This document shows positions 4,863-59,952 of a DNA stretch of 64,000 nt, piece after piece. Location of the stretch: assembly GCA_021292105.1 (NCBI GenBank), contig CM037870.1, positions 11,953,353 through 12,017,352 of the forward strand, in the 5' to 3' direction. Within the stretch, counting starts at the first letter, position 1. Every line of letters starts with the position of its first letter. This DNA is from Anadara kagoshimensis (lineage: Eukaryota > Mollusca > Bivalvia > Arcoida > Arcidae). The notes below the pieces were generated by a model. The model saw only the letters and a list, made by a program, of their open reading frames with translations, did not search any database and was not told the origin of the DNA. A program made the position numbers and the translations under genes.

Positions 4863-7119
<2,257 letters not shown>

Positions 7120-20668: not shown

Positions 20669-21107
20669 TAGGTAAACACCTTTGACCTGTCCGCTTGAAC
20701 TTTCATTTAAATATTTATCACGAACTAAGTATAGGCAAACAACATTGACCTGTCCGTTTCACCTTTCATCAGGAATATTCATCATACTCATCCAATACAT
20801 AGATAGCGTAAGGATTCGCAGTTAATACATACTTTATACACGTTGCCCATGATTAGTGTTCACATCAGGTAGACAATATATATACGCATGGTCCCTATGA
20901 CTTAAATTTACTCGTCCGTAATCAATATTTAAATCAAAGGTCAAGCGGACAGGTCAATGTTGTTTACCTATACTTACCTCATGGAATAGACCTGTGCACT
21001 GTGTATGTGTTAATTTGACTCATAACACTACCCATGTATTGGATGGACCATCCTATATGAATATTCCTAATAAAAAGTCAAACGGACAGGTCGATGTTGT
21101 TTGCCTA
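20669..21107 (-). mobile_element. TAGGCAAAC-type MITE interrupted by a second copy of itself
   Basis: Outer element: TA duplication, left end TAGGTAAACACCTTTGACC, right end GGTCGATGTTGTTTGCCTA. It is split by a complete 239-bp inner copy (20732-20970) with its own TA flanks (20730-20731, 20971-20972). Without the insert the outer copy is about 198 bp. Terminal inverted repeats are about 35 bp. TA target duplication suggests a Tc1/mariner-type mobiliser. Confidence 0.75.
20732..20970 (-). mobile_element. Inner nested TAGGCAAAC MITE (239 bp)
   Basis: Ends TAGGCAAACAACATTGACC and GGTCAATGTTGTTTACCTA, flanked by TA on both sides. The interior AATATTCATCATACTCATCC ... CATGATTAGTGTTCACATC is the reverse complement of the copy at 50466-50703. 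Lies inside the outer copy. Confidence 0.75.
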
Positions 21108-21778: not shown

Positions 21779-22160
21779 TTGTACGTTTTACGTTTTTATG
21801 GGGAGTTTGTACAACGAAGCAGGCTGCTTGCAAATAAATTGTTGATTCGGGGATATTGCGGGCCTGGGGTTATCGTGGCCCTCGTGGGTTTTATAGTCAT
21901 CATCACAGTATTGTTGCTAAGTTTGATGTCTCTGTGTCAAGGATTGCCATGGGTATGTTTGACGCCCCATAGTTCCTTTAACACAATTTTTATTACACAC
22001 GTTGTGAGTGTGGCTGGCTAAACGGGAGGGACTTACCCTTCCAGAGCACCAGGCCTCACTTCCCTGGTGAAAGTTCACGTGTCTAACCTAACTTCTCAGT
22101 TCCAAAGTTATACTTTGCCTCTGAATTGTGATACGGACATGGATTAGTATGTTCTATTTT
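21779..22160 (+). pseudogene. 5'-truncated retroelement: RT C-terminus plus 3' tail
   Basis: Begins with FVQRSRLLANKLLIRGY, the same segment as FVQRSRLLANKFLTQGY in the longer RT relic at 25.3-25.9 kb. It then continues with frame breaks through the end of the coding region (CCCCATAGTTCCTTTAACAC) into the tail CTTACCCTTCCAGAGCACC ... GGACATGGATTAGTATGTT. It shows that the repeated tail in this window is the 3' end of this retroelement. Truncated, out of frame, non-functional. Confidence 0.7.
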
Positions 22161-22299
22161 AGATTATATATCTTTTATATATTTGATGTTACAATCGTTT
22201 TCCATGTGTTATGTTACAAAATCAATTACATAATCTGGTAGTATATCTCAATACTGTTAAATTACATAAGGTCGCACGTGGAACTAATGTAACAAAAAA

Positions 22300-22556
22300 C
22301 AAACATACTAATCCATGTCCGAATCACAACCCAGATCCAAAATAAAAATTTTGGAACCAACACGTCAGGTTAAACACAATAACATCCACCAGGGAAGTGA
22401 GATCGGGTGCTTCGGAAGGGTAAGCTCCTCCTGTTAGCTAGCTACAAACACCACGTGTGTAATCAAAAATGTGTGAAACGAACATGGAACTTTTGGACGT
22501 TAAATATATCCTGGACACAAAGACATAAAACGTATCAACAATACTGTGGTGAAGAA
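22300..22556 (-). repeat. Retroelement 3' end, minus orientation
   Basis: Reverse complement of the same tail (ACTAATCCATGTCCGAATCA...GGGAAGTGAGATCGGGTGC...GTTAGCTAGCTACAAACACC), including the decayed C-terminal coding end. Faces the plus-strand copy ending at 22160 tail to tail. 22557-22625 is a separate plus-strand scrap (GCCAGTTTTCAAAGTTTTGA). Confidence 0.65.
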
Positions 22557-23053
22557 TTTTTTTGCCAGTTTTCAAAGTTTTGACTTTGCTTTTAGAATTG
22601 AAATTTGTACATTGACAGGTATATTTGTGCTTCACAACCAGGATTTTAAACAGCATTTCAAATATGAATCGTGGTCAATTCTGTTCCTTTTCTATAAGTA
22701 TTAAAAACGGTTGCAAGGCAAGCAATAAATGTTCGGTCCTTTGTAATTCTTCGTGTTCCTTTATGACAAAGGTTATTTTTTATACCTGTCACTTGTCTGT
22801 CATCAGCAATCAATAATTATAGATTAAATAATATTTATATTGACGGTTTTATATATCTTTTTCTATGTGATGTAACAATCTTTTCCATGTGTCATGTTAC
22901 ATAATCAATTGTATAATCTTGCAATACATCAGAGCGCTATGAATATAGCAATATAAAGGTTACCCAAGAAGATATTTAAATCAATTGATATAACACACGA
23001 AGATGGTATCCAGTAAAACAATTTATAATAATGAGTATACTAAGGTTACAAGT

Positions 23054-23340
23054 GGAAGCGCGTGGCCTAGTGGTTAAGGCGTTGGACTCATGATTCGAAG
23101 GTCGTGGGTTCGATCCCTGGACCGGGCGATGTGTTGTATCCTTGAGCAAGGCACTTAATTTCACGTTGTTCCAGTTCACTCAGCTGAAAAATAAAAATGA
23201 GTACCAGCAAAATGCTGGGGGTTAACCCTGCGATGGACCGGCGTCCCATTCAGGGAAGAGTCTTGTACTCTCAGTCGCTTAACGCCACCGAAACCGGGAT
23301 AAGCTCCGGCCTGATGGGCCTAATGGCTCGGGACAGACTT
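23054..23340 (+). repeat. SINE-C, full-length tRNA-headed element
   Basis: tRNA-like head GCGCGTGGCCTAGTGGTTAA (A-box) ... GGTCGTGGGTTCGATCCCTG (B-box). The body is TCCTTGAGCAAGGCACTTAA, AACCCTGCGATGGACCGGCG, TACTCTCAGTCGCTTAACGC and CCGGGATAAGCTCCGGCCTG. It ends in a short ACTTTAACTTTAACTTTTT tail. Much better preserved than its surroundings, so a younger insertion. I recognise the body as a SINE type widespread in molluscs but do not assign a family name. Confidence 0.8.
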
Positions 23341-24512
23341 TAACTTTAACTTTTTAAGGTTACAATTATTGCCGTGTCTTTGTGATAATTAGCTTGATGG
23401 AGTAATGATGTGTCTGTTTGATAACAAAGTTACAAAGGAACATTGATCTCTCAGACATCAAAGATGCTTGATTTTTCAACCTTTTTACGATTTCTAGAAA
23501 AGAAGATTACATGAGCATGAAATATTGTTACATTCAACTTTTTTATTTTTTCCTGACAGTTTTATAACCTTTAAACGACTTCTATTAATAGAAGTCTTAA
23601 TTCACATTTGTCATACAGCTTCAAATGTTGACATTTGTTGGCGTCATAATGGAGGTTATATCTAAATATGAAGAAAAAATTAGAAGTATCAGTCATACCT
23701 TTAATATAAACCTTACTAGCATAGTTAGTATTCACATAATCTCTTAATTCTCATTTTTTTTCCATACGGCATAATAATCTTTTTCTATGAGTTATGTTAC
23801 AGATTCAATGATATAATCCTGAAATACATTACAGTTTTGCTGAAACAGCAACAAAAAGATACCCGAGAATATTAAATCAATTTATAGAAGACACGTAGAT
23901 GATAATCGGTAAATCAACTCATAACAAACCGTATAGAAAGGTTACATTTATTGCCGTGTTTTTGTAATCATAAGACTTATACAATAGTTTAATTTCTGTC
24001 TGTGTAATAACAAAACACAAAGGAACATTAATCACTCAGATATCAAAAATGCTTGATTTTTCAACCTTTATACGACTTCCAGAGAAGGAAATTACATGAG
24101 GATGAATTAGTGTTTCGTTCAACTTTTTTCATTATTTCCTGACACTGGTGTTCAACCTTTTTGCGACTTCCAAAAATGAAATTTTCACGTTTGTCATACA
24201 GCTTCAAATGTAGATTTTCTTAAGCGTCATGATGCAAGTCAAATGGAGCAGTAGTACCTTTTATTTCAAGCTGACTAGGATAGATGGTATTCACATAATC
24301 TCGAGTTTTTTGCAATGCGACTTTTTTCTCGGCTCATGTTTCCGATTGAATTATATAATCCTACAATACATAACAGTACTGCTAAAATATCAATAAAAAG
24401 GTAACCTAAGAAGATAAAATCGATTGGCATAACACACGAAATCAATTTATAATAAGGTGTATACTAAAGTTACATTCATTGGAGTGTTTTTGTGATAATA
24501 AGTCCGAGGATA

Positions 24513-24780
24513 TCACAAACTCAGTAGGCAATAATTTCGTATTATTGTCAGAAATATACTATAATTGTCTAAATTTCCTGCAAGTTAAAATTTGAAATTT
24601 CTCAAAAACTAAGGCTTACTCCCTCATGCAAAGTATTTCGTTAGCTTAATTTGGTAAAATATATTTCGGTCCTTTGGGAAGCTTTTCAACATAATTTTGG
24701 TCCAAGCCCTACTGATGAGGAATTGCATTTCGAAACGGCCGTCTAGTGCTGTAAAATGAACACTGGTATAATATGTAACT
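24513..24780 (+). mobile_element. About 265-bp ribozyme-bearing element inserted in RT array
   Basis: Begins about GAGGATATCACAAACTCAGT, passes TTTCCTGCAAGTTAAAATTT and CTCCCTCATGCAAAGTATTT, contains a hammerhead ribozyme at 24707-24748 and ends near GGTATAATATGTAA. It splits an RT-array unit between GATAATAAGTC and CTTATAGAAGAC, so it arrived after that unit formed. Matching copies: 32310-32607 (-) and 32655-32925 (+). Confidence 0.6.
24707..24748 (+). ncRNA. Hammerhead ribozyme, type I, core intact
   Basis: CUGAUGA core at 24712-24718, stem II GGAAT/ATTTC closed by TGC (one G-U pair), then the GAAA core, minimal stem III (C-GGCC-G) and the GTC cleavage triplet at 24741-24743. Stem I is CCCTA (24707-24711) against TAGTG (24744-24748), with one mismatch. 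Cleavage is expected after C24743. Confidence 0.8.
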
Positions 24781-25139
24781 TATAGAAGACTAAAATGATG
24801 ATTCGGTGTGATATCACAACGCACAGCAACATAAATCGCTCAAATAATTTTTAATCTTTATACGAAGATAGCGTTAGAATAGATTATCGACTCAATCAAC
24901 TTTTTTATTATTTCAAGATACATTTTCTCAATCTTTAAACGACTTCCAAAACATTTTAGTCTTCACGTTTGTCATACAGCTACAAATGTAGACATTCATT
25001 AGCGTCATGATGGAAGTCCAAATATGAAGCAGAGTTAGAACAATCAGTTGTTTACTTACTACGATAGATGGGTTTTACATAATCTCCTAATTTCTAAGTC
25101 ATTTTTCCATACGACATTACTCTTTATTCATATATTATC

Positions 25140-25335
25140 AAAAACAAACATACTAATCCATATCCCAATCACAATCCATAAGCAAAGTAAAAACTTTGGA
25201 ACTAAGAAGTTAGTATAGACACGTGAACTTCCACCAAAAAACTGAGGCCGGGTGCTCCGGAAGAGTAAGCACTTCCTGTTTAGCTAGCTACATCCACCAC
25301 GTGTGTAATCAAAAATGTATAAAAGGAACATTGAA
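25140..25335 (-). repeat. 3' tail of the RT relic
   Basis: Directly downstream (minus strand) of the RT frame: CACACGTGGTGGATGTAGC, AGTGCTTACTCTTCCGGAGC, GGTGGAAGTTCACGTGTC, TTACTTTGCTTATGGATTG, ATATGGATTAGTATGTTTG. This copy links the abundant short tail repeat to the RT. Confidence 0.7.
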
Positions 25336-26141
25336 CTATGGGACGTCAAATATATCCAAGACAATCCTGAACACAGAGACATCAAACTTATCAACAATAC
25401 TGTTATGGCGGCCATAAAACTTTTTGAGGGCCTTGATAAGCATAGGATTGAAATATCCTTGTGTCAAAAATTTATTTGCAAGCAGCCTGCTCCGTTGTAC
25501 AAAGTAATCGTAGTGGGAATAAGCTCTACCATAGCGTATTAATTGTAAAACAAATACACCATAAGCAGGAGAGGCAGGTATATTTCTGCATGGAAAAAAA
25601 GTTGAATAATTGAAGTCATAACGTTTGTCATAAAGTTTCAAATATAGCCTTTCGTGGGCGTCATAATTCAGGTATATGTTTAAATATAAAGCAGAACTTG
25701 AGGAATCAGTCGTATCTTTTATTTCAATCTCACTAGGATAGACGATATTCACATAATTTCCAAATTTAGTATTGTTAAGATACAGAACGTCATTTATATA
25801 TCTGTATGTGGAGTTGACTGATTTGGCGACAGTCTTCTCTCCAGATTTAACAAGGTTCTGCATAAATTCTGCTTCATAAGAATAATCAAACAAATCAGCA
25901 AGCAATGGTGCAAAGTTTGTACCCATTTGTATACCGATTGTTTGCTGGAAAATTTTAAAATTTTATTATCAAACACAACAAATATGTTACCTATCAAAAC
26001 CTTTTTGTTGATGGTATATTCAGTATAGTTTTGTTTAAAATCCGTATGGTGCTTGACAAAATAACAAAGATCCATGTAGCTTGGCTTAAAGTTTTTTGTA
26101 AAAGAATGAAAATGAATAATCTCTTTAAGACCTTCTTTCAA
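25336..26141 (-). pseudogene. Reverse transcriptase relic (Penelope-like type), frameshifted
   Basis: The longest RT fragment: a 196-residue frame 25926-25336 beginning MGTNFAPLLADLF, joined upstream by frameshift to about 115 residues (VLIGNIFVVFDNKI...) at 26141-25794. RT landmarks in order: MGTNFAPLLADLF (motif B'-like), RYINDVLYLNN where YIDD would be expected (catalytic Asp to Asn), YPSEIEIKDTT, LYDKRYDFN, NIPASPAYGVF and LIRYGRA. No endonuclease domain is visible. Followed on its 3' side by the family tail at 25335-25140. Non-functional because of the frameshift and the lost catalytic aspartate. The Penelope-like assignment is by resemblance only. Confidence 0.7.
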
Positions 26142-27994
26142 TTTAGAATGGGGGATAGTGGTGTATAGTGTAGAAATATAAAATGCTTTTATCCTTTTTC
26201 AAAAGATAAAGTATTAGAAGCAAGATGTTATGTTACAGATTTAATTATATAATCCTGCACTACATCACAGTTCTGCTAAAATAGCAATAAAAGGATATAC
26301 AAGAAGATTAAATCGATTGATATAAGACATGAAGTTGATTATCAGTGAAAACAACTTATAACAAACCATATAGAAAGGTTATATTTATTTTCGTGTCTTT
26401 GTGATAATAAGCCTTAAAGAAGGTTTTAATGATGTGTCTGTGTGATAATAAAACGAAAAGATATCAAAGATGCTTGGTTTTTCACAAATTTCTAAAAAAT
26501 GAAGTGTTCACCTTTGTCCTACAGCTACAAATGTAGACATCCATTAGCGTCATGACGGAAGTGTAAATACTAGTATGATGCAGAATTAGAAGAATCAGTG
26601 GTAGATCTTTTATTTCAAGCTTACTAGGATAGATGTGTTTTACATAATCTCCAAATTTCAAAGTCTTTTTACCATGCGACATAACAACCTTTATTTATGT
26701 GTTATGTTACAGATTTAATTATATAATCCTGCACTACATCACAGTACTGCTTAAAAAGCAATAAAAAGATACCCATGAATATTGGATAAATTGATCGTAG
26801 ATGATTAACAGTAAATCAACTTATAATAAGCCGTATAGAAAGTTTATATTTATTTTCGTACATTTGTGATAATAAGCCTTATAGAAGGTTGTAATGATGT
26901 GTCTGTGTGATAACAAAACATAGAAGAACATTTATCTCTAAGATATAAAACAAGCTTGATTTTTCAACCTTTATACAACTTCCAGAGGAGAAGATTACAT
27001 GTAGATGAATGATTGTTTCATTCAACTTTTTCATTATTTCCTGACACAGATTTTCAACCTTTATGCGACTTCCAAAAAAAGAAACCTTCACGTTTGTCAT
27101 ACAGTTTCAATTGTAGCTTTTTGTTGGCGCCATGATAAAAGTCCCACTATGAAGCTGAAGTAAACAAAAACCATGCCTTTCATTTCAAGCTCACTATTAT
27201 AGAGGTTGTTCACATTATCTCTGAATTTACGCTTCAAATGTAGACATTCGTTGACGTCATTATTCAGGTAAAGTCCATTTATGAAGCAGAATTAGAAGAC
27301 GCAGTCATACCTTTTATTTCAAGTTTACTAAGATAGACTATATTCACATAATCTCCAAATTTCCATGCGACATATAATTTTTTTTCTATGGTTTATGTTA
27401 GAGATTCAATTATATAATCCTGCACTACATCACAGTACTGTTAAAATAGCAATGAAAATACCCAAGAATATTGAATAAATTGATCAAAGACACGTAGATG
27501 TTATTATAATAAATCAGCTTATAGTGAGGCGTATAGAAAAGTTATAATTATTACAGTGTCTTTGTGATTATAAGGCTTATAGAAATGTTTAATGATGTGT
27601 CTATGTGATGAAAAAACATAAAGGAACATGAATCTCTCAGATATCAAACAAGCTTGATTTTTTTATCCTTTATCCGACTTCCAGAGAAGAAGATTACGCT
27701 AGAATAGATTATTGATTCGATCGACTTTGCCATTAGTTTCCGAGAAGTTCCATGCATTGCAATTATTGTCTTTTAATATGGCAAAAGAGTAATGATATAA
27801 CCTGTTAGTATTTTATTGTTGACATAGTGATATTGCAAGCCTAGGTTTATGATGGCCCTCAAAATATTTATGGAATAATCACAATATTGTTGATTAGTAT
27901 GATGTCTCTCTTTCCAAGATTGGTCTGAATATATTTAAAGTTCTATAGTGTCGTGTTACTTTCATTTTAAATTTGATTTCACACTTGACAGTTG

Positions 27995-28250
27995 GCCTTT
28001 ACTGGTTTACCCGGTGTCGGTATAATGTAACGGGGGGGGGTTAATGTACGCTTGTATGCGGCGTACTGACTCGGTGAGCTAGCACTAAGTGTGCGCTGGT
28101 ACAAGGCAGACCATAAAACACGCTCACACTTCACATGCATACATGAACTTGTTTATAGATTAATCCATAGAAATCTATAAAGTAGTTCTTGTCGCCAACA
28201 GCTGAAAAACTGCTGATGCGCGTTAAGCAGCATTCAACCAACCAACCTTA
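27995..28250 (+). repeat. SINE-B, 3' two-thirds
   Basis: TTGGCCTTTACTGGTTTACC ... ACATGCATACATGAACTTG ... AACATTCAACC-like end. It lacks the tRNA head. A G9-10 run at 28032. It abuts a minus-strand SINE-A scrap at 28252-28345 (CCTTGTTTATTTTAAGTTTC...GGCGAAAGAACAGTCACTAC). Confidence 0.65.
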
Positions 28251-28384
28251 CATGACAAGGAACCTTGTTTATTTTAAGTTTCCATCCGAAAGAACCGCGA
28301 CCTTTATTTCGTAATACCGATTGTTTGGCGAAAGAACAGTCACTACATACGTTTAAGCAACTTGAAAGTTGTAGCTACGTAGAC

Positions 28385-28520
28385 AGGAGGGTCTTATAAT
28401 AATCATTTTTTAGCACCCGACCTTATTTTTCTGGTGGTAGTTCACGTTAAGCAGTTTTCAAAGTTTTAACTTTTTTTTTGGATTGTAATTTGAACACGAA
28501 CTTGTATATTTGTTTTAGAT
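28385..28520 (+). repeat. Retroelement 3' tail, plus orientation
   Basis: TAGCACCCGACCTTATTTTT, CTGGTGGTAGTTCACG, CAGTTTTCAAAGTTTTAACT and GAACACGAACTTGTATATTTG in family order; diverged. Confidence 0.55.
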
Positions 28521-28799
28521 TTTGTCAAAAGAGTGTTTTAAAAAGGAACAAGCTTAAACAGCTGTATAACCCATCTCTCCGCCTACCAAATAAATATTAA
28601 TCTAATTGTCATAAAATCATGCCATTTTCTGTATCAAGTATATTCTCTGAATGACGCACTATGTAAGAGCATTGGCCTTGATCTGTAGATACTCATTTAA
28701 CCTTTTCCAATTAGTTGAATAAATCAACCACAAAAATATCGATGTATTTTTAAATGCCATTCTCAAAACCAATTAGACTCTGTAAACTAGCAAATTAAG

Positions 28800-29160
28800 A
28801 AATCAAAAACAAACATATTAATTCATAGCCAAATCATCATCTCGAAGCAAAGTACAAGAATAAGATTCTGATAGATATGTGATGAAGCAAAACAAAAACT
28901 TAAATGGAGTTATAATACATGCATTTTAAATCTAAAACGGTCTTCTACTATTCAAAGCACAACTCTAAAAGCATATTAAAAACTAAGAAAATGAGATATA
29001 AAGATTCTGATGTTTGATGAAGCTAAACCATAATTAAAATGGAATTATAAAACATGTAATTCATATTTTTGGAGTACTAATTTGTTTCGGGCATACTGAT
29101 GAGCAAATTCATTCCGAAACGGCCGTCTAGTCTTGCAAAAGTAAAAAAGTTTAGTACTAA
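28800..29160 (+). repeat. Tandem ribozyme-bearing units, about 182-bp period
   Basis: AAAACGGTCTTCTACTATTC (28934-28953) is the 3' half of the same hammerhead found complete, though decayed, at 29091-29133, exactly 182 bp later. Flanking blocks repeat too (AAGATTCTGATAGATATGTG / AAGATTCTGATGTTTGATGA; AAATGGAGTTATAA / AAATGGAATTATAA). It reads as two tandem units of a small ribozyme repeat. 28530-28800 shows an unrelated repeat (TCTGAATGACGCACTATG...) that recurs near 30125 and 30310. Confidence 0.5.
29091..29133 (+). ncRNA. Hammerhead ribozyme motif, decayed
   Basis: CUGAUGA core (29096-29102), CGAAAC, GGCC and GTC are present, but stem II has a mismatch (GCAAAT/ATTCC) and stem I (GCATA against TAGTC) pairs poorly. 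Confidence 0.55.
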
Positions 29161-29244
29161 TTACAACCACTGAGCTAGTATCTCTGCTGATGGACTTAGC
29201 AACTTACATTGTCGTTAAACCAGGTGTTGAGTTGAGTTGGATAG

Positions 29245-29562
29245 TGGAGTCCCAGTCAAGAATATTTCACTTATATCGAGACGTCGTATAGTGATAGGCG
29301 AAAGTGCAGAAATTTTGCCTGTGCGTCGCCTAATGGCATTATACAGGAGGGTTCTTTAGCGTGCCAAGCCCACCGTGACACGGGATCTCGTTTATTTTAA
29401 GTTCCGATCCGAAAGAACTGTGACTTTTACTTCGTAACTCCGGGTTCTTGGCGAAAGAAAAGTCACTACCGACTTTCAAGTCTTGGGTCAGACCAGCCCA
29501 AGGTTATAATCCACAACCTCCCACCAGAGTGAGCACTCTACCAACTGAGCTACCACAGTGGT
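29245..29562 (-). repeat. SINE-A, near full length
   Basis: Head at the right (ACCACTGTGGTAGCTCAGTT read on minus), body, and tail AATATTCTTGACTGGGACTC at the left. Same layout as 9283-9612 and 59638-59952. Confidence 0.75.
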
Positions 29563-29780
29563 TAAACCAGAAGGCAATACATAATTAAAGTATTGTCAAA
29601 TAAAAAATGTTCACAAAAATACCAGCTTTTTACTTTAAAAATTTCTCAAAAACTAGGCTAGCTTCATCGTTCAAAGTATTGTCTTTGGCGGTTTTGGTAA
29701 AATACATCTTGCTCCTTCTATTTGCTCATTTCAACATTTTAAAAATAGATTGTATTTAGATTTTCAGAATGTCGGTCCGA

Positions 29781-29825
29781 TCACTAATGATGAGGAATTT
29801 TATTCCGAAAGGGTCGTCTAGTGAT
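29781..29825 (+). ncRNA. Hammerhead ribozyme, core mutated
   Basis: Stem I is perfect (TCACTA/TAGTGA) and stem II GGAAT/ATTCC is perfect, but the core reads AUGAUGA in place of CUGAUGA, and GAAAG replaces GAAAC. Likely inactive. Confidence 0.65.
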
Positions 29826-29896
29826 GCAAAATAAAAACAGGTGTAGTAATACTAGTTATTACCTGTTCGTGTAAAAGAAATTACATAGTTTTACAG

Positions 29897-29938
29897 CAAA
29901 AGACGGCCGTTTCGAAATACAATTCCTCATCAGTTGTG
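29897..29938 (-). ncRNA. Hammerhead ribozyme, type I, core intact
   Basis: On the minus strand: stem I CACAA (29938-29934) with TTTTG (29901-29897), one mismatch. CUGAUGA, stem II GGAAT/ATTTC with TGT loop, GAAAC, GGCC and GTC are all present. Confidence 0.75.
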
Positions 29939-30569
29939 CTTGGGCCAAAATTATAAAACCAAAATTGTTTTCGAGATAACCATAGGACCAAAATATATTT
30001 AACCAAATTTAGTTAAGAAAATACTTTGCATGAGGGAGAATACCTTAATTTTTTAGAAATTTTAAAGTTTAGCTAGCAGCTAATTTAGACAGTAGTAATG
30101 GAATATTTTTGCATCAAATATATGTTCTGAATGACGAGTATATAAGAGCAGTAACCTGAATAAATATGTAAATACAATGGTTTAACCTTTCTTTGATAAT
30201 AAGTAGAATATTTCAACCACAAAAATATCGATCCATGTTCAAAAATAAATTAGATATGGTACTATTCATAATGATATATTTTCTGTAACATAGATATTTT
30301 CTGAATGAGGCAGTACATAAGAGCATTGACTTTTTTAAACATGTTGATATGTAGATACACTTATTTCACCTTTCTATTACTAATTAGTTCTAGAAATGAA
30401 CAACAGACATACAGATCCAAGTTCATCTCACAATTCAAAATCAATTAAAATCTTTTTAAACTGGCAAAATAAGAAAACGATACAGATATAAGAAAACAAG
30501 GCTTAGATAGATGTTCGATGAAGCAGAACCTTAACTAAAATGTAATTGTAATAAATGTATCTTAAAAAT

Positions 30570-30615
30570 TGTAACTGATGAGGAATTGTTTTTCAAAACG
30601 GCCGTCTACTATTAG
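30570..30615 (+). ncRNA. Hammerhead ribozyme motif, decayed
   Basis: CUGAUGA and the GGCCGTC end are kept, but the GAAA core is AAAA and stem I is lost. Preceded by the same GATGAAGCAGAACC... block as the units at 28.8-29.1 kb. Confidence 0.5.
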
Positions 30616-30679
30616 AATCACAATCGAAACAGCAATTTAAACTTTAAAACTAGCAAAATTTTGAAAGATATAAAAATTT

Positions 30680-30745
30680 GATAGCTTGTCAGTTCCACAG
30701 TTTTTGCTTTGCTTCTGGATTGTAATTCGGACATGTGTTAGTATT
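30680..30745 (+). repeat. Scrap of retroelement 3' tail
   Basis: TAGCTTGTCAGTTCCACAGT, TTTGCTTCTGGATTGTAATT and CGGACATGTGTTAGTATTTT. Short, plus orientation. Confidence 0.5.
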
Positions 30746-30856
30746 TTTTTTTGTATAATAAGGCTCTGGTTTACGTTTGATTAATCAGAGCCATAACGAA
30801 AATGAAATTGTAATACAATTTAGTATTATTACAGGAATGTGATTTTGTTTAGTCTG

Positions 30857-31078
30857 TAAAGACAAACAACTTTGACCTGTCCGCTTGACCTGAAATTTAA
30901 AAAAATTATGCACTAGATGGAACACGGGTGATTATTTCATCTACATCATTGGAAAGCATGCATTGTTTATGTATTGACGACGAATCCTATTACTACCCAT
31001 GTATTGACATTGGGTGGATCGTCGTTCATAAATATTCAGAATAAAAGGTCAACCGGACAGGTCAATGTTATTTGCCTA
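30857..31078 (+). mobile_element. TAGGCAAAC-type MITE
   Basis: Left end TAAAGACAAACAACTTTGAC; right end GGTCAATGTTATTTGCCTA followed by TA. Interior CCTATTACTACCCATGTATT and TGGGTGGATCGTC shared with the other copies. Confidence 0.65.
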
Positions 31079-31084
31079 TATATG

Positions 31085-31255
31085 TAGCTTACTAAACAGG
31101 AGAGGATTACTCTCCTGCAACACACGGACCAGTCGGCCTCAACTCCCTGGTGGAGATTTACGTGTTTAACTAAAACAAATTAATGTTTTACTTTGTTCCT
31201 TTTTATCTTATTATTTCATTTCTTGGTTGTATGATTTGAAGATAGATTGGTATAT
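31085..31255 (+). repeat. Retroelement 3' tail, plus orientation
   Basis: GCTTACTAAACAGGAGAGGA, CGGCCTCAACTCCCTGGTGG, AGATTTACGTGTTTAACT and AAGATAGATTGGTATATGG in family order. Confidence 0.6.
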
Positions 31256-31384
31256 GGTTTTTTTTATTAACAATTATGTTGCGCATTTGCAAAGCCTTTT
31301 AAACCGCATTAAGGTTTTTTCGATCAAGTTCATGCTTGGTTTATAATCAATTCCTTTTTCTGGGTAATAACAAATTAAACGTTT

Positions 31385-31535
31385 TAATCAAAAACGAACA
31401 TACTAATCCATGTCTGAATAACATTACAGAAGGAAAGTAAACACTTTGGAACTGACAAGTCAGGTAAGACACGTGAACTTTCCACCAGGGAAGTGAGGCC
31501 GGATGCTCCGGAAGGGTGAGCACCTACTGTTTAGC
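31385..31535 (-). repeat. Retroelement 3' tail, minus orientation
   Basis: ACGAACATACTAATCCATGT, AAGTAAACACTTTGGAACTG, CACGTGAACTTTCCACCAGG, GATGCTCCGGAAGGGTGAGC, GTTTAGCTAGCT. One of the cleanest copies. Confidence 0.65.
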
Positions 31536-31959
31536 TAGCTTAACTTTTAAGTAATTATAACACGTTGTATTTGTAACAAATTCTAACAAAGATGGTATAA
31601 AAGCAAAACTTGTAACGTAGTCAATTACTCTAAGCCACAACATTTTATCTACCACACACTAGAATTAGCCGTGACATTGATATGTTACTTTGTCAATTGC
31701 GCATCAATAGGGTTTTAAATTAGGTTATTATTTTTGCAGCAATTTTTATGGCACATTGTTTTCTTTCCATCTTCCTAAAAAGTGTCTATAAATGATGTCA
31801 ATTTGTTTAGGTACCTAAACAATGGAATGAACAACGGTACTGAACAACAAACGTTTACAAACACCTAATCATTTATGATGTGTGAATCCAAAATGACCTT
31901 GGATATATTTGACGTCCCTTACGTTCATGCTTTTTTCCATTCTCAATTCTCTGACGCTG

Positions 31960-32215
31960 TAAGCATAGTTAGCTAAACGCTTATACTTCAGAAGCAACTA
32001 GTCTCACTTCCTTGATAGAAGTTCACATGCTTTACTTTCTTTGTCGGTTTCAACCTTTTGACTTTGCTTTGGGATTGCGAGTTTACATGGATTGTTTTGT
32101 TTAATTTTTATTGTCATCATCAGTGTTTGGTGCTTTCAGGAGTACCAGACTTGCCTACCCTGGAATTCAGCTTTTGGAATTGCGATTTTTATATGGACTA
32201 ATATATTTGGCTTTC
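31960..32215 (+). repeat. Retroelement 3' tails, two diverged pieces
   Basis: 31960-32110: TTAGCTAAACGCTTATACTT, TCTCACTTCCTTGATAGAAG, TTACATGGATTGTTTTG. 32120-32215: CAGGAGTACCAGACTTGCC, CTTTTGGAATTGCG, TATATGGACTAATATATTTG. 31535-31960 also holds decayed coding-end sequence (TTGGATATATTTGACGTCCC). Confidence 0.5.
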
Positions 32216-32309
32216 ATTTAAATATGACTTTTACTTTGAAAGACGGAAACAACAGTATTTATGCATAATTAATAGTATTGTCTTGCAATATCTGTATATC
32301 TCAATTACA

Positions 32310-32607
32310 GATTATACTAGTGTTAATTTTACAGTTCTAGACGACCATTTTGGAATACAATTCTTCATCAGTAGTGTTTGGACTAAACTTGTGAAACCAA
32401 ATTTCGTTCAAGATGTTAAGGAAATGCCCAAAGGACCAAATATATTTAACCAAATTTAGCTAAGGGAATACTTTGCATGAGGAGGTATACCTTAGCTTTT
32501 GAGAAATAGGAATTTCATATTTTAATAAGCAGCAAATTTAGACAATAGTATATATCTACACAATTATACACAATTATTACCTACTGAGTTTTTGATATCC
32601 TCAGGGA
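32310..32607 (-). mobile_element. Ribozyme-bearing element, minus orientation
   Basis: Minus-strand reading starts CCTGAGGATATCAAAAACTC, passes CTCATGCAAAGTATTCCC and ends near CACTAGTATAAT. Faces the plus copy at 32655-32925 head to head. Contains the decayed ribozyme 32335-32376. Confidence 0.6.
32335..32376 (-). ncRNA. Hammerhead ribozyme, core mutated
   Basis: Minus strand: CACTA, CUGAUGA, stem II GAAT/ATTC, then AAAAT in place of GAAAC, GTC kept, stem I partner TAGAA. Likely inactive. Confidence 0.6.
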
Positions 32608-32654
32608 AACATTCATTGTACCTTTTCTCCTGTATTTCCCATGTTGATGGTGTT

Positions 32655-32925
32655 TCATAAAAGAAATGTTTTTATAATTGTCTTAATTTCCTGCAAGTTA
32701 AAATTTGAAATTTCTAAAAACTAAGGTATACTCCCTCATGCAAAGTATTTCCTAGCTTAATTTGGTAAAATATATTTTGGTCCTTTTGGTAGCTTTTCAA
32801 AATCTTCAAAATATTTTTGGTTTCATAATTTTAGTCCAATCACTACTGATGAGGAATTGTATTCCGAAACGGCCGTCTAGTGCTGTAAAATTAAAACTGG
32901 TATAATATGTATTTTATGATAAAAT
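32655..32925 (+). mobile_element. Ribozyme-bearing element, plus orientation
   Basis: TAATTTCCTGCAAGTTAAAA, CTCCCTCATGCAAAGTATTT, TGGTAAAATATATTTTGGTC, the ribozyme, then GCTGTAAAATTAAAACTGGT and ATAATATGTA. Near-identical to 24540-24780 over the shared part. Confidence 0.65.
32841..32882 (+). ncRNA. Hammerhead ribozyme, type I, fully intact
   Basis: Stem I CACTA (32841-32845) pairs perfectly with TAGTG (32878-32882). CUGAUGA at 32846-32852; stem II GGAAT/ATTCC with TGT loop at 32853-32865; GAAA at 32866-32869; minimal stem III C-GGCC-G; GUC at 32875-32877, cleavage expected after C32877. All core positions of the hammerhead consensus are present. Minimal stem III hammerheads are known from Penelope-like retroelements and animal retrozymes. 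Confidence 0.88.
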
Positions 32926-34040
32926 CCACGCTTATAACTTTTATCAATTGTGTTCTTTGATTTCAAAGAAGTGAAATTATTAAACTTGTTGAACTCATTC
33001 ATTGAATTTTTCGTTTGATTATGCGTTGTAGAACTATAAATAAATTTAAAAAATAAGGTTTTAATAAAAATGTGAAAAACTTATAATATTTAATTCCATT
33101 TGGTATGTATCTATTAACAGATGTATGAAACGTATTTATCTGTATACACGGTCGCTATACACTTTCCAATGTTTTGTTGTTATAAATTATAAAGTCTTGA
33201 TTTTATTATTGTATATTGTATGCTTGTATTAAAGAACATTCGTAACGTCTTCTACAGAAATATTATTCAGTTATTATTGTGATCATATCCAGGCTTTTAC
33301 TGAGTCTAAAAAAAATTTCCATTAAATAGTATTGTCATAAAGACATTCATGATAAATCTCTCGCTGAAATATCCTCTTATGCGACACGCTTCTAGAACAT
33401 GTAATTGAAAAATGTAGGCAAACCAGGGGAAATCATGATTTCTCTCTATATTGAATAAGTTTTATTAAAAGACATTGTTCAAATTTCATGTATTCGTGAA
33501 AAGTACCAAGATGTTGAATCTCTTCTGATTCTAATTTCGTCCAATTTCACATTAGAGTAAATGCCTGATCATGTCACGCAAAATACCATGCAGCAAAGCA
33601 CGAGTAATACAAGGGATTTTATCAATGATATGAATTACTGGCGGTATGCTATTCAAAGCTGTTTTTGTCAAGTAAACTTTGCAAATGTTGCCACACAGTT
33701 GTACATATCAGAGCTCACTAGTTCTTTGTTGGTGAAATGCCTCTTTGAAATATATTAAAGGTATACAAAAAAGGGTCCAAAATACTAGTACATGTAGTTA
33801 GTTATGGGTCCCCGGTAGTTATCAAACTAAAGCGCTATCTTACGGATTGCAGTTACCTTCAACCGCGTAGGTTCAAATCCCAATCGGGTAGCCCCTTAAG
33901 GTCTGAGCAAGTATTACAGCTTTCTTGAGAAAAAAAGATGGATTTTCTCCACCATTCTAAAAACTAATATCGATACAGAATCTTGACCAATTGACTTAAC
34001 TGCATATCTCAAAATATGTTGCATATTATTTTACGATATG
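32926..34040. other. Gene-poor AT-rich stretch with tRNA-like scrap
   Basis: A 65-codon frame at 33561-33758 has no recognisable motif. 33820-33990 holds a tRNA-like sequence with a B-box (GTAGGTTCAAATCCCAATCG) followed by the CTCCACCATTCTAAAAACT block common to other SINE scraps here; probably a diverged SINE, not a tRNA gene. Confidence 0.4.
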
Positions 34041-34044
34041 TAAG

Positions 34045-34175
34045 AATCAAAATCAAACATACTTATTCATGTCCGAATCACAATCCAGAAGCAAAGTAAA
34101 AACTTTGGAACTGACAAGTTAGGTAAGACACGTGAACTTCCATCAGGGAAGTTAAGCCGGCTGCTCACTGAGAAG
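34045..34175 (-). repeat. Retroelement 3' tail, minus orientation (left of propeller gene)
   Basis: AAACATACTTATTCATGTCC, AGAAGCAAAGTAAAAACTTT, CACGTGAACTTCCATCAGGG. Truncated at GGCTGCTCACTGAGAAG. Confidence 0.65.
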
Positions 34176-34379
34176 TGATTAACAAAATAACAATCAGCAA
34201 TGTTATATATAGATTTTATCAAATGAAATAAATAATATCACTTAACAAAAAAATCGAATTGCACCAACAAAGCCCTTATTCTTTGTCGCTGTCAGTCCAA
34301 CAATGCCCTACACGATCTACAATCGAAAACAATGGCTGCGTATATTTTTGTCAGGAAAGGATAAAAACATATCTTAATA

Positions 34380-35186
34380 TCATGTGGTGATTTTGAAAAC
34401 CTTGATTTTGTCTTCCTTAAAACAGGATAAAAATAATTTTCCAGTCCCTTGTTGAAGATCCATGTACTCCGGTTTCCTCAAAGTAGTGTTTTCAATTTCA
34501 ATCTCCCCACAAACATCCCCTGTAGTACTTATCAATTTCAAAGCATGCTGGGTTAACACGGACACTATTAACCTGTTGTCTCGGAGATAGAGCCCAATCG
34601 GTCCTCCTTTCAAAGACACTTCCCACATGTGCTTACCATCGTGATACGAGACACAGACGACCCTGTCTGTTTTCATATCCGTAACGTACACGTGCTTCTT
34701 GTTTCTATTGATTTCAATGTCCCGAACATCTTTCAATTTTGAACCAAATATATCCCCAGAGACGGTATGTTGCAAGTGACCTTTTGCATCGAGAATTTGA
34801 ATTTCTTTTGAATCGTTCAAAACATCACATACAACTACTGCGAAAAGCTCTCCGTCAAATTTTATCACGGAACCTGTTCCTGTTAAGTCTATCTCTCTAT
34901 TTTGAAGTTCTGCTTTCCCATTATCAATTTTGTAGAATACTATTTCTTCGGCTCGTGTGACAGCAATTTCTGTAACATCCGTTGCCGTGATGCCGCCACA
35001 TAAATATGGCTCCATTTCCACTGACGAGATAAAGACTCCATTTGCGTTGAAGATCTTAAGTTTCTTTTGAAAATTATCAAGTATGATTATCCATTGGTCT
35101 GATAAACATAAAATGGCAGCAATCCAGCAAGCATTTATCTCGGAATGAACACGTGCATCGAATTCTTCTAGATATGTCCCGCGCAT
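34380..35186 (-). CDS. NHL/TRIM-like six-bladed beta-propeller protein, 268 aa, single exon
   Basis: Continuous 268-codon frame starting MRGTYLEEFDARVHSEI. It is preceded by an in-frame TAA 12 bases upstream of the ATG and a pyrimidine-tract acceptor near 35221, so the 5' UTR may be spliced. The sequence reads as repeated beta-propeller blades: IILDNFQKKLKIFNANGVF, IQILDAKGHLQHTVSG, HVYVTDMKTDRVVCVSYHDG, ALKLISTTGDVCGEI and KLFLSCFKEDKIKVFKI, each with the aspartate/asparagine-aromatic-x-Lys-hydrophobic pattern of NHL/TolB-like repeats. It resembles the C-terminal propeller of TRIM2/3-type proteins, which are expanded in bivalves, but no RING, B-box or coiled coil is present, so it is either a propeller-only paralogue or a 5'-truncated copy. 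Substrate unknown. Flanked by outward-facing retroelement tails. Confidence 0.7.
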   Translation of the reverse strand: MRGTYLEEFDARVHSEINACWIAAILCLSDQWIIILDNFQKKLKIFNANGVFISSVEMEPYLCGGITATDVTEIAVTRAEEIVFYKIDNGKAELQNREIDLTGTGSVIKFDGELFAVVVCDVLNDSKEIQILDAKGHLQHTVSGDIFGSKLKDVRDIEINRNKKHVYVTDMKTDRVVCVSYHDGKHMWEVSLKGGPIGLYLRDNRLIVSVLTQHALKLISTTGDVCGEIEIENTTLRKPEYMDLQQGTGKLFLSCFKEDKIKVFKITT

Positions 35187-35344
35187 TTTTTTTTACATCA
35201 TGTATTTCCTCTGCTCTGCACTGAAATAAAAAATATCAATCAAAATGTCATCAAGAAATAATATTTTATGATAATATTTTATGACTGTCGTCACAATTTT
35301 GTTGAGTATAATGGTTCTATATCCAAACTTATCTGGATATATTT

Positions 35345-35550
35345 TGCGACCCACAGTTCCATGTTCCTTCATTCCCAATCTCGATTTCATACGTAGTGAA
35401 TGCATCTAGTTAAACATTAGGTGCTTGTCCTTCCGGAGCACCCGGCCTCACTTTCATTATGAAGGTTCACGTTTAACTTAATTGTCCGTTTTAATGTTTT
35501 AACTTTGCTTTGAGATTGTGATCTGGAAATGGATAAGTATGTTTGTTTTT
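35345..35550 (+). repeat. Retroelement 3' end, plus orientation (right of propeller gene)
   Basis: Decayed coding end (GGATATATTTTGCGACCCAC, AGTTCCATGTTCCTTC), then GTGCTTGTCCTTCCGGAGCA, CCGGCCTCACTTTCATTATG, TTTTAACTTTGCTTTGAGAT. Points away from the propeller gene. Confidence 0.6.
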
Positions 35551-35584
35551 AATTCATATAGGTATCCGGGTCATTTAAAACCTT

Positions 35585-35715
35585 ATAATCAAAAACAAAA
35601 ATTCTATTTTAATCCATGTCCGAATCACAATCCAGAAGCAAATTAAAAACTTTGAAACTGACAAGTAAAGATTAAATCACGTGGACATCCACAAAGAAGG
35701 TGAGGTCTGGTGCTC
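35585..35715 (-). repeat. Retroelement 3' tail, minus orientation
   Basis: TTAATCCATGTCCGAATCAC, AGAAGCAAATTAAAAACTTT, GTGGACATCCACAAAGAAGG, GGTGCTCCGGAAAGATA. Tail to tail with the preceding plus copy. 35720-36310 shows nothing recognisable. Confidence 0.6.
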
Positions 35716-36310
35716 CGGAAAGATATAATCATCTTATGTTTATCTACCTACGCCCGCCACACGTGTAACCAGAATTAAGTGAAAGGAACTTTAGGTATCT
35801 TTGGTTTGCGAGAAACACAAGATATATTTCATTTTTATTGTATTGTCCATATAATTATGGAATCGGTGATATAGTCGTCACTAGAAACGGAATACAACAA
35901 CAATATATTAACTCATTAAATGGTTGCATTGTCGTTTTAAAAGACTGCGGAATGTAGTCTAAAAATATTTAAACTACATCCGTTACATCTAAAGGCAATT
36001 AATGACCATTGAAGTCAGAAGTTCAAACTTCATGAATACTTTACATGGGACCTCCTCTGCGTTTTTGTCGTTAATTACACGTATCAAAATTCATAATATA
36101 ATTTAGTTATCTTTTGTTTGCAAGAAACAGATGATCAATGTATTTCATTGTTTTGTGTTTTACGTTTAAATAGGTAACAAAAACCAATATTCTAATTTTG
36201 TTTCACGCAAATGCACAAACGGATGACCATAAGATGATTACTTGTTATCTGCATCCCTGGATGATCGGTTGTGTGTTTTAGTTGTTGTAGGTGCAGTAAT
36301 GGTAGTTATT

Positions 36311-36311
<1 letters not shown>

Positions 36312-36364
<53 letters not shown>
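36312..36364. repeat. (GT)n microsatellite
   Basis: About 26 uninterrupted GT units. It generates a spurious poly-Val/Cys frame. Confidence 0.95.
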
Positions 36365-36365
<1 letters not shown>

Positions 36366-36541
36366 TACATAGAACACCTTCGTGCTGTCATTTAACTTTA
36401 CCATTTTCCCATTATATTCTCAGGTATCATGATCATTTGAACGCAAAATCGATAATCCGATATTTTTGTGACATGGATATAGCAACAAAACATTACAGTG
36501 AGAAATTAATCTTGTTTTGAACATCACAGCATGTGTTACAT

Positions 36542-36544
<3 letters not shown>

Positions 36545-36583
<39 letters not shown>

Positions 36584-36716
36584 TAAAACATTACAGACAA
36601 AACGTTATTTTGTTATCATTTTGTTATCAGAGAGAGAGAGAGATCTTATAGCATTATAAAGACAATACGTTATTTTGTTATGAGAGAGAGAGAGAGAGAG
36701 AGAGGCCTGAGAGAGA
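36545..36716. repeat. Compound (GA)n minisatellite
   Basis: Three (GA)n runs (36545-36580, 36629-36644, 36681-36704) alternate with a repeated spacer (TCTTAAAACATTACAGACAA / TCTTATAGCATTATAAAGAC, then ACGTTATTTTGTTAT), so the whole unit of about 70 bp is tandem. Confidence 0.85.
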
Positions 36717-36927
36717 TCTACCTTACCTCATTGCCTGGTCATATCCAACTGTTGGAATTAACCGCCTGAACGTCCAGTCCCTTAAAGTGATTAATAAAAT
36801 ATTTTGTTATTTATTTATAGCCACACAGGTTTTAACACGACAAGAGTAGGGGTTTAAATTAAAGGTAGAAAAACAATCAACACATTTAATCGCTGTTGTT
36901 CAATTCTATCAATATTAATTAAAGGTG

Positions 36928-37152
36928 TAGGCAAACAACATTGACCTGTCCGCTTGACCTTTACTTTAAATAGTTATTATGGACCATCCCATTTATATTT
37001 AGGGGACATTTGTGCTTTCATCTACAACACAGGAAAACGTCCATTGTTTATGCATTAACTGCGAATCCTAACACTACCCATGTATTGGGTGGACCACCAT
37101 ATATGAATATTTCAACGAAAGGTCAAGCGGACAGGTCAATGCTGTTTGCCTA
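36928..37152 (+). mobile_element. TAGGCAAAC-type MITE
   Basis: Left TAGGCAAACAACATTGACCT; right AGGTCAATGCTGTTTGCCTA; 225 bp. Interior CCTAACACTACCCATGTATT and GGGTGGACCACC as in the other copies. Confidence 0.75.
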
Positions 37153-38645
37153 TTACTGGTTCTTTAAAAGGAGGTTCTTTTATGGTAATTGGACCGATCG
37201 ATTCTTAATAAAATTCAATTACATTGTTACATTTTACGACAAAATTAGTTTGAATTGAGTTAAAGTGTTTTATTGACGAAATTAGAATAAATTTTGTAAC
37301 ATAATAATTATGTTTTAAATAAACACCGTTACTAACCTTTTAAATGCGTTAAATTGTCCTCTTCGTCTTTACGTTTCGGATTTATATTTCGGACTGACAG
37401 ATAACGGGTTTATTTTTTCTCTTTTGATTTTAGATTACCCACTGACAGCTTTTGAAAATGATAGACAATAACTGCCGGGAGATACGAAGCATGTATTGTT
37501 ATTTTATGTGTATTGTTTCAATACATGCTTTATCGTGGACATTGTTAGCGCTTAGTGACGGAGGCATTCATGTTAGTACAATACTATATTAGTATATTAT
37601 AATATTTATTTACCTTTCAATAGAGAAGTTGTAGGTCGAAGTTAGATCGATGCAAATTCGATCAAACAAAAAAAATTGTTTGCCGTGGGAATGTTTGGAT
37701 AAAACAAAAATTTTAAGACATAAGTAGTCTTATTTTTTAAAATTTAAATTTAAATTTTAAAATTTTAACATTTATTTTATTTAATTTTAATTTTATTTTA
37801 TTCAATTTTATTTTATTTATTTTACTTTATTGTGTTTTGTTTATTTTTATTTCATTGTATTTATTTATTTATTAAGCGGGGCGGGGTCGGAATAAAGTAT
37901 AAACAATTTATGCAAAATCAAATTTTGATAAACTTTAACCTGTTAAAGTTGTTTTTAGAAGACACATTTTGGAGAAAAACAACGTTTAGAAATACAAATA
38001 ATGTATTTTGTTATATCAAGGTTGGGTGAGGATAAATAATATAATAATTATTCAAAATAAATTTTCAGTAAACTTGAACCTGTTCAATTTTGTTTACCGT
38101 AGACAATTTTTGAGAAAAACAATTTGAAATTTAAATAATTTAAGTTAGAAGTCAGCGTAATTTTAGAAAAATATTAATGAAAAATAAACAAATTTTAATA
38201 TGAATGAAACAGGATTTTCAGTTACAAATGGCATTATAATCGAGGTTGGGTCAGGAAAAATAGCTTATGCAAAAATAAACTTTCAATAAACCTCTTCAAT
38301 TTGTTTACAATGGAGAATTTTTGAAGAATTTATGCAAAAAAAATGCAATCAAACTTGACCCTGTTAGTTGAATTTTGTTTACCGTGGACAATTTTGTAGA
38401 GAAAAACATCTTGAAAATTATTATGTGAAGTTAGATCTTAGTGTAATTTTAGAAAAATATGAATGAAAAATAAATAAGGTTTAATACCGTTTTAAGTGTA
38501 GGTTAAACACCTTAATCCGAGCAATCTCCACCCGCTATTGATTAGGATTGGTCAAGTTACTCGTGTGTGAGGTAACCGGATTACAGGGTTTGTCAGGTAC
38601 ATTACGATCAATGCATCGTGACATATTTCACAAGTAAATTATTCT
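37153..38645. repeat. AT-rich gene-free stretch with diverged tandem repeats
   Basis: 37735-37870 is an ATTTTATTTA-rich low-complexity block. 37920-38490 holds about four diverged copies of AAACTTGAACCTGTTCAATTT, TTTACCGTGGACAATTTT, GAGAAAAACA and ATTTTAGAAAAATATGAATG in order (irregular spacing of about 70-150 bp). No gene seen. Confidence 0.5.
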
Positions 38646-44714: not shown

Positions 44715-44944
44715 TAAAGACAAACAATAATGACCTGCCCTTATGATCTTTGATTTCAATATTAATTATGGACGAGTTCATTTATGTAAAGGTGAAACAT
44801 ATGTTTATACCGTCTGCATTATCGAAACCTGTATTGATTATGTATAAATTGTGAATCCTAACACTACCCATGTATTGCATTGGTCAACGTGTGTCAATAT
44901 TCCTAATGAAAAGGTCAAGCGGACAGGTCAATGTTGTTTGACTA
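44715..44944 (+). mobile_element. TAGGCAAAC-type MITE
   Basis: Diverged left end (TAAAGACAAACAATAATGAC), good right end (AAGGTCAAGCGGACAGGTCA then ATGTTGTTTGACTAA). Interior CCTAACACTACCCATGTATT. Confidence 0.65.
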
Positions 44945-48995: not shown

Positions 48996-49227
48996 ATTAG
49001 TGCCTTGGTCCTAAAAGCTTAATTGATGGAAGTATAATTGTATTTTGTGAAGGTTTATAGCAAGTCAAAATGTCACAAACACGCTTACATAGCTATACAT
49101 GTATATTGTAACCATGCGGGATGTCTATTCTTTTAAATAACAACGCTGGATACATCAGTTAGTGAATGGAATATAAAGATGGATCTAGGATAAAACCTTA
49201 CTCGACTTGACATAAAAGTGCCTTTCA

Positions 49228-50367
49228 ATGGAAGTTTTAGATTTAGTTTTTGCTTCCATTCTGATAATGTTTTCTATGCTGTCCCTGGTGTTCAATTCAG
49301 CATTAATATTCATCATACTTAAAACCAAAGTTTTACACACGTGTACCAACTCGTTTGTTTTATCTCTAGCATTTAGCGAAATGATGATTGCCTTTGTAAT
49401 ATTACCAGTTCATTCAGCCTCGAGAATCGCCCAAGGGTGGGTTTTCAATGACGGTATATGTAAGTGCGTTGCATTTTTAAACACTGTTGGTAGGTGTTCG
49501 TCAATGATGTCTCTGATGTTCCTTTCTATTGATAGATGTATTGCTGTTTGGAAACCTCTGAAATACTCGTCAATTGTAACTTCACAGACCTCTGCTATAA
49601 TGATAGGATATTTATGGTGCCAAAGTTTAATTTTTGGTATACTACCTTTAGTAAATATAGGCTTTTATCAATTCAATAATGAACAGTATTTATGTATATA
49701 CGACGTACTATCTGATAGCACATTTGCAATAGTAAGATTTATTATAGCCTTATTTGTTCCGTATCTTATCATAATTACGTGCCTTGTGAAGATCCTTCTA
49801 GAAGCCAGATCTAGACATAGCATTTTCGCTCTAGCTACTATTCCTTTGAGATTAAATGGACTTGGTCCAATTAATTTTAATACCAGGACCCTTAAAGCAA
49901 TGAAGTCCTTATTTTGTATAGTTTTAGCATATACATTTCTATGTTTACCGGACTCTATTATGAACATTGTTAAGTTGTTGAACAAGCAGTACTTGATACA
50001 GGTGCACAAGGTTGTGTACATATTGGTAACTCTGTTATCGTCATCATGTTGTTTTGTCACGCCAGTAATAATAACTCTATTCAACAAAAAGTACAAGCAA
50101 AAATTAAAAGAATTCAAAACTTGCTGTAGTTGTAAAAACAAAGTGGTTCCATCTAGATCACATCTGGAGGACTTTTCAGTTACTTCCGGGTTACATACTT
50201 TATTAGGAACAACGTTGATTTTTAATATTCAAATGGAAAAGAGGAATGCCAGTGTTTCATTGTCCACATCAAGCACTTATGATCCACCTGCTGTCAGGAA
50301 CTCAGTTGATCTCAGAACTCGTTTTAGTGGGATGTCAAGTGTTGCCATACAAGAGGAACAGATTTAA
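49228..50367 (+). CDS. Rhodopsin-like (class A) orphan G protein-coupled receptor, 379 aa, intronless
   Basis: Seven hydrophobic segments at roughly residues 5-31, 42-64, 78-105, 121-145, 165-190, 225-248 and 262-285, then a tail of about 90 residues. Class A landmarks: N23 (1.50), a cysteine pair (C78 or C80 with C156) for the extracellular disulfide, IDRC at 101-104 in place of DRY, W130 (4.50), P140, P178 (5.50), P241 (6.50) and P279 (7.50). Departures: E51 where D2.50 is usual, C239 in the toggle-switch 6.48 position (normally W), and TPVII in place of NPxxY. CCSC at 299-302 is a likely palmitoylation site after helix 8. The short N-terminus lacks a signal peptide. Ligand unknown; the segment NSFVLSLAFSE...GWVFNDGICK vaguely recalls GPR161-like orphans. 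No clear poly(A) signal before the MITE at 50466. Confidence 0.85.
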   Translation: MEVLDLVFASILIMFSMLSLVFNSALIFIILKTKVLHTCTNSFVLSLAFSEMMIAFVILPVHSASRIAQGWVFNDGICKCVAFLNTVGRCSSMMSLMFLSIDRCIAVWKPLKYSSIVTSQTSAIMIGYLWCQSLIFGILPLVNIGFYQFNNEQYLCIYDVLSDSTFAIVRFIIALFVPYLIIITCLVKILLEARSRHSIFALATIPLRLNGLGPINFNTRTLKAMKSLFCIVLAYTFLCLPDSIMNIVKLLNKQYLIQVHKVVYILVTLLSSSCCFVTPVIITLFNKKYKQKLKEFKTCCSCKNKVVPSRSHLEDFSVTSGLHTLLGTTLIFNIQMEKRNASVSLSTSSTYDPPAVRNSVDLRTRFSGMSSVAIQEEQI

Positions 50368-50465
50368 TTATTGTAAACTATGGTGAGAATTGTCGGAGTT
50401 TAAAGTATACATGTAGCTGTGGCATGTCTGTCAATCTGCATATAGACATGTCGCAAACATTTGTA

Positions 50466-50703
50466 TAGGTAAACAACATTGACCTGTCCGCTTGACCTTT
50501 GATTTAAATATTCATTATGGACGAATAAATTTAAGAAATAGGGATCACGCGTGTATATTTCGTCTTCTGATGTGAACACTAATCATGGGCAATGTGTATA
50601 TGTATTAACTGCGAATCCTAACGCTACCTATGCATCGGGTGGACCCTCCTATATGAATATTCCTAATGAAAGGTCAAACGGACAGGTCAATGTTGTTTAC
50701 CTA
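50466..50703 (+). mobile_element. TAGGCAAAC-type MITE, complete
   Basis: TA flanks (50464-50465, 50704-50705), left TAGGTAAACAACATTGACCT, right AGGTCAATGTTGTTTACCTA; 238 bp. Best plus-strand copy; starts about 100 bp after the GPCR stop codon. Confidence 0.8.
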
Positions 50704-50714
50704 TAACACTGCAT

Positions 50715-59637: not shown

Positions 59638-59952
59638 GTGAGTGAGAGTATTTTACTTATATCGAGACGTCGCCAGCTATAGGCGAAAGTGCAGAAATTT
59701 TGCCTGTGCGTTGCGCTTATGGCATTATACAGCAGGGTTCTTTAGCGTGCCAAGCCCACCGCGACACGGGACTTCGTATATTTTAAGTTCCCATCCGAAA
59801 GAACCGTGACTTTCATTTCGTAATGCCGAGTGCTTGGCGAAAGAACAGTCACTACTCACTTTCAAGTCTTGGGTCAGACCCGGCCGGGGTTCGAACCCAC
59901 GACCTTCCACTTACGGAGCGAACACTCTACCAACTGAGCTACCGCAGTGGTT
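59638..59952 (-). repeat. SINE-A, full length
   Basis: Head at the right (ACCACTGCGGTAGCTCAGTT on minus, B-box GTGGGTTCGAACCCC), body intact, tail at the left. Best-preserved minus copy. Open frames here (for example 59725-59910) are SINE artefacts. Confidence 0.8.

Follow-up and report, generated by a model that had tools for sequence, protein, structure and literature searches.

The window analysed here, a 64,000-nucleotide stretch of the Anadara kagoshimensis genome, carries a complete type I hammerhead core on its plus strand (Table 1). The preliminary description of this DNA had called the motif a complete type I ribozyme, and all the elements that it named were found again in place. The sequence exhibits the CUGANGA...GAAA...UH core and three stems, with stem I open, which assigns it to type I. 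When both strands were scanned with up to one core mismatch allowed, this was the only match in the window without a core mismatch; the single further match (7001-7053) has one. Searching 300 dinucleotide shuffles of the window for CTGANGA and GAAA with stems I and II of at least 4 bp each gave 3 matches, and none was obtained with stems of 5 bp each. Similarly, a search for the 32-mer tolerating up to 3 mismatches recovered 4 places in the window, one of them the 32-mer itself, and 100 shuffles yielded none. The putative outer part of stem I comprises 8 bp. It was dropped as added support, since 513 of 5000 shuffled flanks pair equally well.

Table 1. Hammerhead elements, repeat copies and reverse-transcriptase (RT)-like pieces in the window
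Feature	Position	Strand	Remarks
Type I hammerhead core	32841-32882	+	stems I (5 bp), II (5 bp) and III (2 bp); predicted cleavage 3' of C32877
Stem I	32841-32845 / 32878-32882	+	CACUA / UAGUG; 5 bp, read from the sequence
CUGAUGA core box	32846-32852	+	read from the sequence
Stem II	32853-32857 / 32861-32865	+	GGAAU / AUUCC; loop UGU
GAAA core box	32866-32869	+	read from the sequence
Stem III, monomer	A32869-U32876, C32870-G32875	+	loop GGCC (32871-32874)
GUC cleavage triplet	32875-32877	+	ends at C32877
ACGGCCGU, self-complementary	32869-32876	+	2-bp stem III in the monomer; 8-bp helix III in the dimer (prediction)
Putative outer stem I	32826-32893	+	UAAUUUUA (32826-32833) / UAAAAUUA (32886-32893); internal loop GUCCAAU / CUG
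Copy A	32673-32917	+	extent from alignment with copy B; intact core
Copy B	24506-24783	+	one mismatch in stem I, one G-U pair in stem II
Copy C	32303-32602	-	decayed core; extent from alignment with copy B
Copy D	29886-30097	-	broken stem I
Copy E	29639-29848	+	changed core
Copy F	29064-29146	+	similar only over the ribozyme region and near flank
Copy G	30574-30608	+	similar only in the ribozyme core
RT-like piece	25336-26198	-	two frames
Smaller RT-like pieces	21797-21969, 23607-23741, 24178-24309, 26557-26658, 27285-27362, 61736-61872		

The hammerhead belongs to a repeat of which seven copies (A to G) are identifiable in the window. Six of the seven, all but copy A, show changes in the core or the stems. 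Copies C and A are arranged head-to-head with their ribozymes at the outer ends, and copies E and D tail-to-tail; Tandem Repeats Finder identified no head-to-tail array of the repeat unit in the window. No stop-to-stop frame of at least 100 aa overlaps copies A to G. In an alignment of the seven copies, 82.0% of the pair cells are paired (a value reached by 9 of 500 shuffles) compared with 31-47% in slid controls. The covariation score (reached by 13 of 500 shuffles) and the 6 cells changed on both sides (16 of 500) point the same way, while the 4 pairs with a both-side change (82 of 500) and the 10 further pair types (115 of 500) are ordinary; the rows being related and the structure being taken from one of them, the support from this alignment is weak.

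Outside the window the core is abundant. The genome (1,115,223,567 bases in 36 contigs) was searched for exact matches to a 32-place core pattern covering stems II and III, the stem II loop being left open. This identified 3339 matches, 1735 forward and 1604 reverse, and the reversed pattern gave none on either strand genome-wide. That stems II and III are intact in so many copies suggests a recent spread of the intact core. The first 100 matches listed all come from contig 1 and are a non-random sample. For 15 of them a neighbour on the same strand lies within 750 bp, a count from which neighbours with a changed core escape. These 15 places form 10 neighbour pairs, where about 0.11 would be expected by chance, with spacings of 339, 339, 339, 338, 357, 325, 675, 344, 343 and 341 bp, the value of 675 bp corresponding to about two units. 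Among them are one array of 5 exact cores, spaced by 338-339 bp, and one of 4, spaced by 341-344 bp. The other 85 first-listed places are without an exact same-strand neighbour within this distance, so that many copies look dispersed. Two further pairs in this sample are inverted (600 and 1483 bp apart) and in 6 of the 100 matches the stem II loop differs from UGU. The sample thus includes hammerheads in short tandem repeats within the size range of retrozyme repeats (150-450 bp), with copy A of the window lying outside any head-to-tail array.

The Rfam covariance models give a different result. No hammerhead family reaches its gathering score over the whole window, and none figures among the 9 matches obtained at E ≤ 10 over 27000-38000 (11 kb). 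With 161 bases searched alone, Hammerhead_1 (RF00163) reaches 22.3 bits (gathering score 34) and RAGATH-1-hammerhead 17 bits (gathering score 56.3). The preliminary description had named the lack of a type I covariance match above threshold as grounds for giving up its claim, and formally this is what was found. However, the RF00163 gathering score is a threshold set by curators rather than a mechanistic feature, and we give the shortfall less weight because of the genomic core copies, some of them in arrays with a period of ~340 bp. The low Rfam score is also what speaks for a mere chance likeness to a hammerhead. Against this stand the absence of matches in the shuffles at equal stem lengths and the high copy number of the exact core genome-wide, which in practice refute it; the probability left to chance is negligible.

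The hammerhead fold of the monomer is predicted to be poor. For the 42-mer, the hammerhead fold is predicted at -2.8 kcal/mol against -7.3 kcal/mol for the best fold and, with the outer stem included, at -5.0 against -10.0 kcal/mol for the minimum-energy fold. The monomer thus has a minimum-energy fold other than the hammerhead, with an unexceptional energy (z -0.58). The self-complementarity of ACGGCCGU allows helix III, of 8 bp, to form between two ribozymes. For two strands of the 42-mer, a dimeric hammerhead is predicted as the minimum-energy fold (-24.5 kcal/mol), although this energy is unremarkable, being reached by 89 of 300 letter-shuffled 42-mers. The dimeric fold is predicted for copy A and for none of the other 6 window copies. 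The suggestion in the preliminary description that the short stem III goes with dimeric action is supported by these predictions, and its interpretation as a whole is supported in part. It is noteworthy that, in newts and axolotl, hammerheads whose stem III is weak are reported to be inefficient at cleavage as monomers and to improve as dimers (PMC7229834; PMC6155905).

We consider, with a probability of roughly 75%, that the motif is the ribozyme of a ~340-bp non-autonomous retroelement that belongs with the non-LTR retrozymes of metazoans. Such elements are of a known kind, retrozymes having already been described in mussels and other animals. The arrays would be transcribed into multimers in which neighbouring ribozymes would pair through ACGGCCGU into dimeric hammerheads cutting 3' of C32877. 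The resulting ~340-nt monomers would be ligated into circles by a host ligase, and a reverse transcriptase provided in trans, for which a Penelope-like element may be the source, would return them to the genome. Copy A is a solitary piece of ~245 bp, whose own RNA would need either to work as a weak monomer or to join with the RNA of another copy. Against a retrozyme, the partial units A and B show ordinary structure (z 0.53 and 0.25 respectively), strong self-pairing being described for published retrozyme circles. The low Rfam score, the unfavourable monomer fold, the unremarkable energy of the dimer, the ordinary values of two covariation measures, the changes in six of the seven window copies, the lack of a head-to-tail array in the window and the early end of the alignment of copy D also count against it. 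A search of viral contigs gave no match to the core pattern, and none of the papers listed in searches for hammerheads in bivalves and molluscs dealt with this repeat.

Among described systems, the closest seen is the non-LTR retrozyme of Mytilus galloprovincialis, the two being likened by description. According to the account in PMC7229834, the mussel genome contains ~5000 type I hammerheads, usually in repeats of ~350-390 bp, and the element is transcribed, self-cleaves in vitro at ~0.1 per min and is found as circRNA. Common to both are the type I hammerhead, the thousands of copies, the tandem copies and the low GC content (0.31 over 32001-34000 of the window), while the unit is slightly shorter here. 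The same source presents Penelope-like elements as a strong candidate mobiliser, both these and retrozymes being reported in the metazoans analysed, where their role as mobilisers is only proposed. The axolotl and newt hammerhead satellites (HHR_Amex1 and 2, PMC7229834) also form tandem repeats of 330-350 bp for which dimeric action is plausible, in other hosts. Another repeat-borne case is provided by the satellite-like W elements of Schistosoma mansoni, whose hammerheads are described as tested (PMC8490949).

The preliminary description had named two possible homes for the ribozyme, a retrozyme and a Penelope-like element; the spacing of ~340 bp makes the first the better fit. It is unlikely that the repeat is the pseudo-LTR (pLTR) of an autonomous Penelope-like element and the arrays leftover tandem pLTRs, even if several RT-like pieces occur at 21.8-27.4 kb of the window and copy B sits between two of them (24178-24309 and 25336-26198). 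Copy B lies on the strand opposite to both, and the arrays of 5 and 4 cores leave no space for a coding body. The RT-like fragments, putatively Penelope-like from their motifs, find nothing credible among Pfam, NCBIfam and PDB sequences (the best weak rows are at E 0.1 for NCBIfam and E 0.017 for prolyl-hydroxylase chains). Work by Cervera and de la Pena in 2014 reportedly concerns the hammerheads of Penelope-like elements. Minimal type I hammerheads are indeed reported in their pLTRs (PMC7761336; PMC11167929) and, as in these, the core is of a short type I with RT-like fragments nearby, but the present repeat is short and its ribozyme has a stem III of 2 bp. For the Penelope-like element of Anolis carolinensis, PMC11167929 reports that in vitro the hammerhead mutants left insertion unaffected and that the ribozyme cut only with protein added.

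The repeat could also be a satellite DNA whose hammerhead survives as a relic and no longer gives rise to self-cutting RNA, as the weak monomer fold and the mostly decayed window copies might suggest. This is quite improbable given the 3339 exact cores in a genome of 1.1 Gb, which point to recent spread, and the many first-listed places standing apart from any exact neighbour, a count that would overlook neighbours with a changed core. If the retrozyme family proves active, a further high-copy genome becomes available for reconstructing the spread of ribozyme-bearing non-autonomous retroelements, which could be read from copy ends, arrays and helper elements.

The ends of the window copies are of interest in this respect. 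When the copies are aligned to A, B terminates at 32917, C at 32914 and E at 32907 (coordinates of A), about 30-40 nt beyond the cleavage site; the alignment of copy D stops at 32893, short of this common end. The 5' extents vary: B and C share sequence beyond the 5' end of A, and E is shorter. In these local alignments of five old copies, the ends resemble a fixed 3' end with 5' truncation, a pattern that target-primed reverse transcription could give. The stops of B, C and E fall within 10 bases of one another and lie downstream of the cleavage site, not at it. If this pattern holds genome-wide, reverse transcription would begin at a defined internal position of uncut or circular RNA, a proposal that we regard as speculative and rather doubtful. 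If true, the genomic copies themselves could serve to test the circular-RNA model of retrozyme spread.

The region 21797-27741 is made of diverged, partly tandem repeats with broken RT-like pieces, most of them on the minus strand. The AlphaFold model of the RT-like protein is unusable (mean pLDDT 35.5), and viral contigs gave no confirmed relative of this protein. A repeat of ~100-150 bp is present in both orientations (25137-25289, 31386-31540, 35406-35720 and others). One of its copies lies directly behind the RT-like piece at 25336 and is perhaps the 3' end of that element.

Other repeats are scattered over the window. A repeat of ~230-250 bp occurs at 20725-20973, 30855-31080, 36925-37156, 44718-44944, 50457-50705 and 54142-54399. 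In two of these copies its ends are inverted repeats (36928-36977 / 37103-37152 and 30857-30913 / 31024-31080), and in sequence it looks like a miniature inverted-repeat transposon. Weak Rfam tRNA matches, absent from the ARAGORN output, were obtained at 23061-23124 (+) and 59881-59944 (-) with 30.3 and 30.9 bits respectively. The latter lies in a repeat, perhaps a tRNA-derived SINE, with copies near 9.3-9.6, 29.2-29.5 and 57 kb. Finally, compatible with an animal source but no proof of it, an open frame of 383 aa at 49216-50367 (+) matches the 7tm_1 profile of rhodopsin-family receptors (E 1.9e-34).
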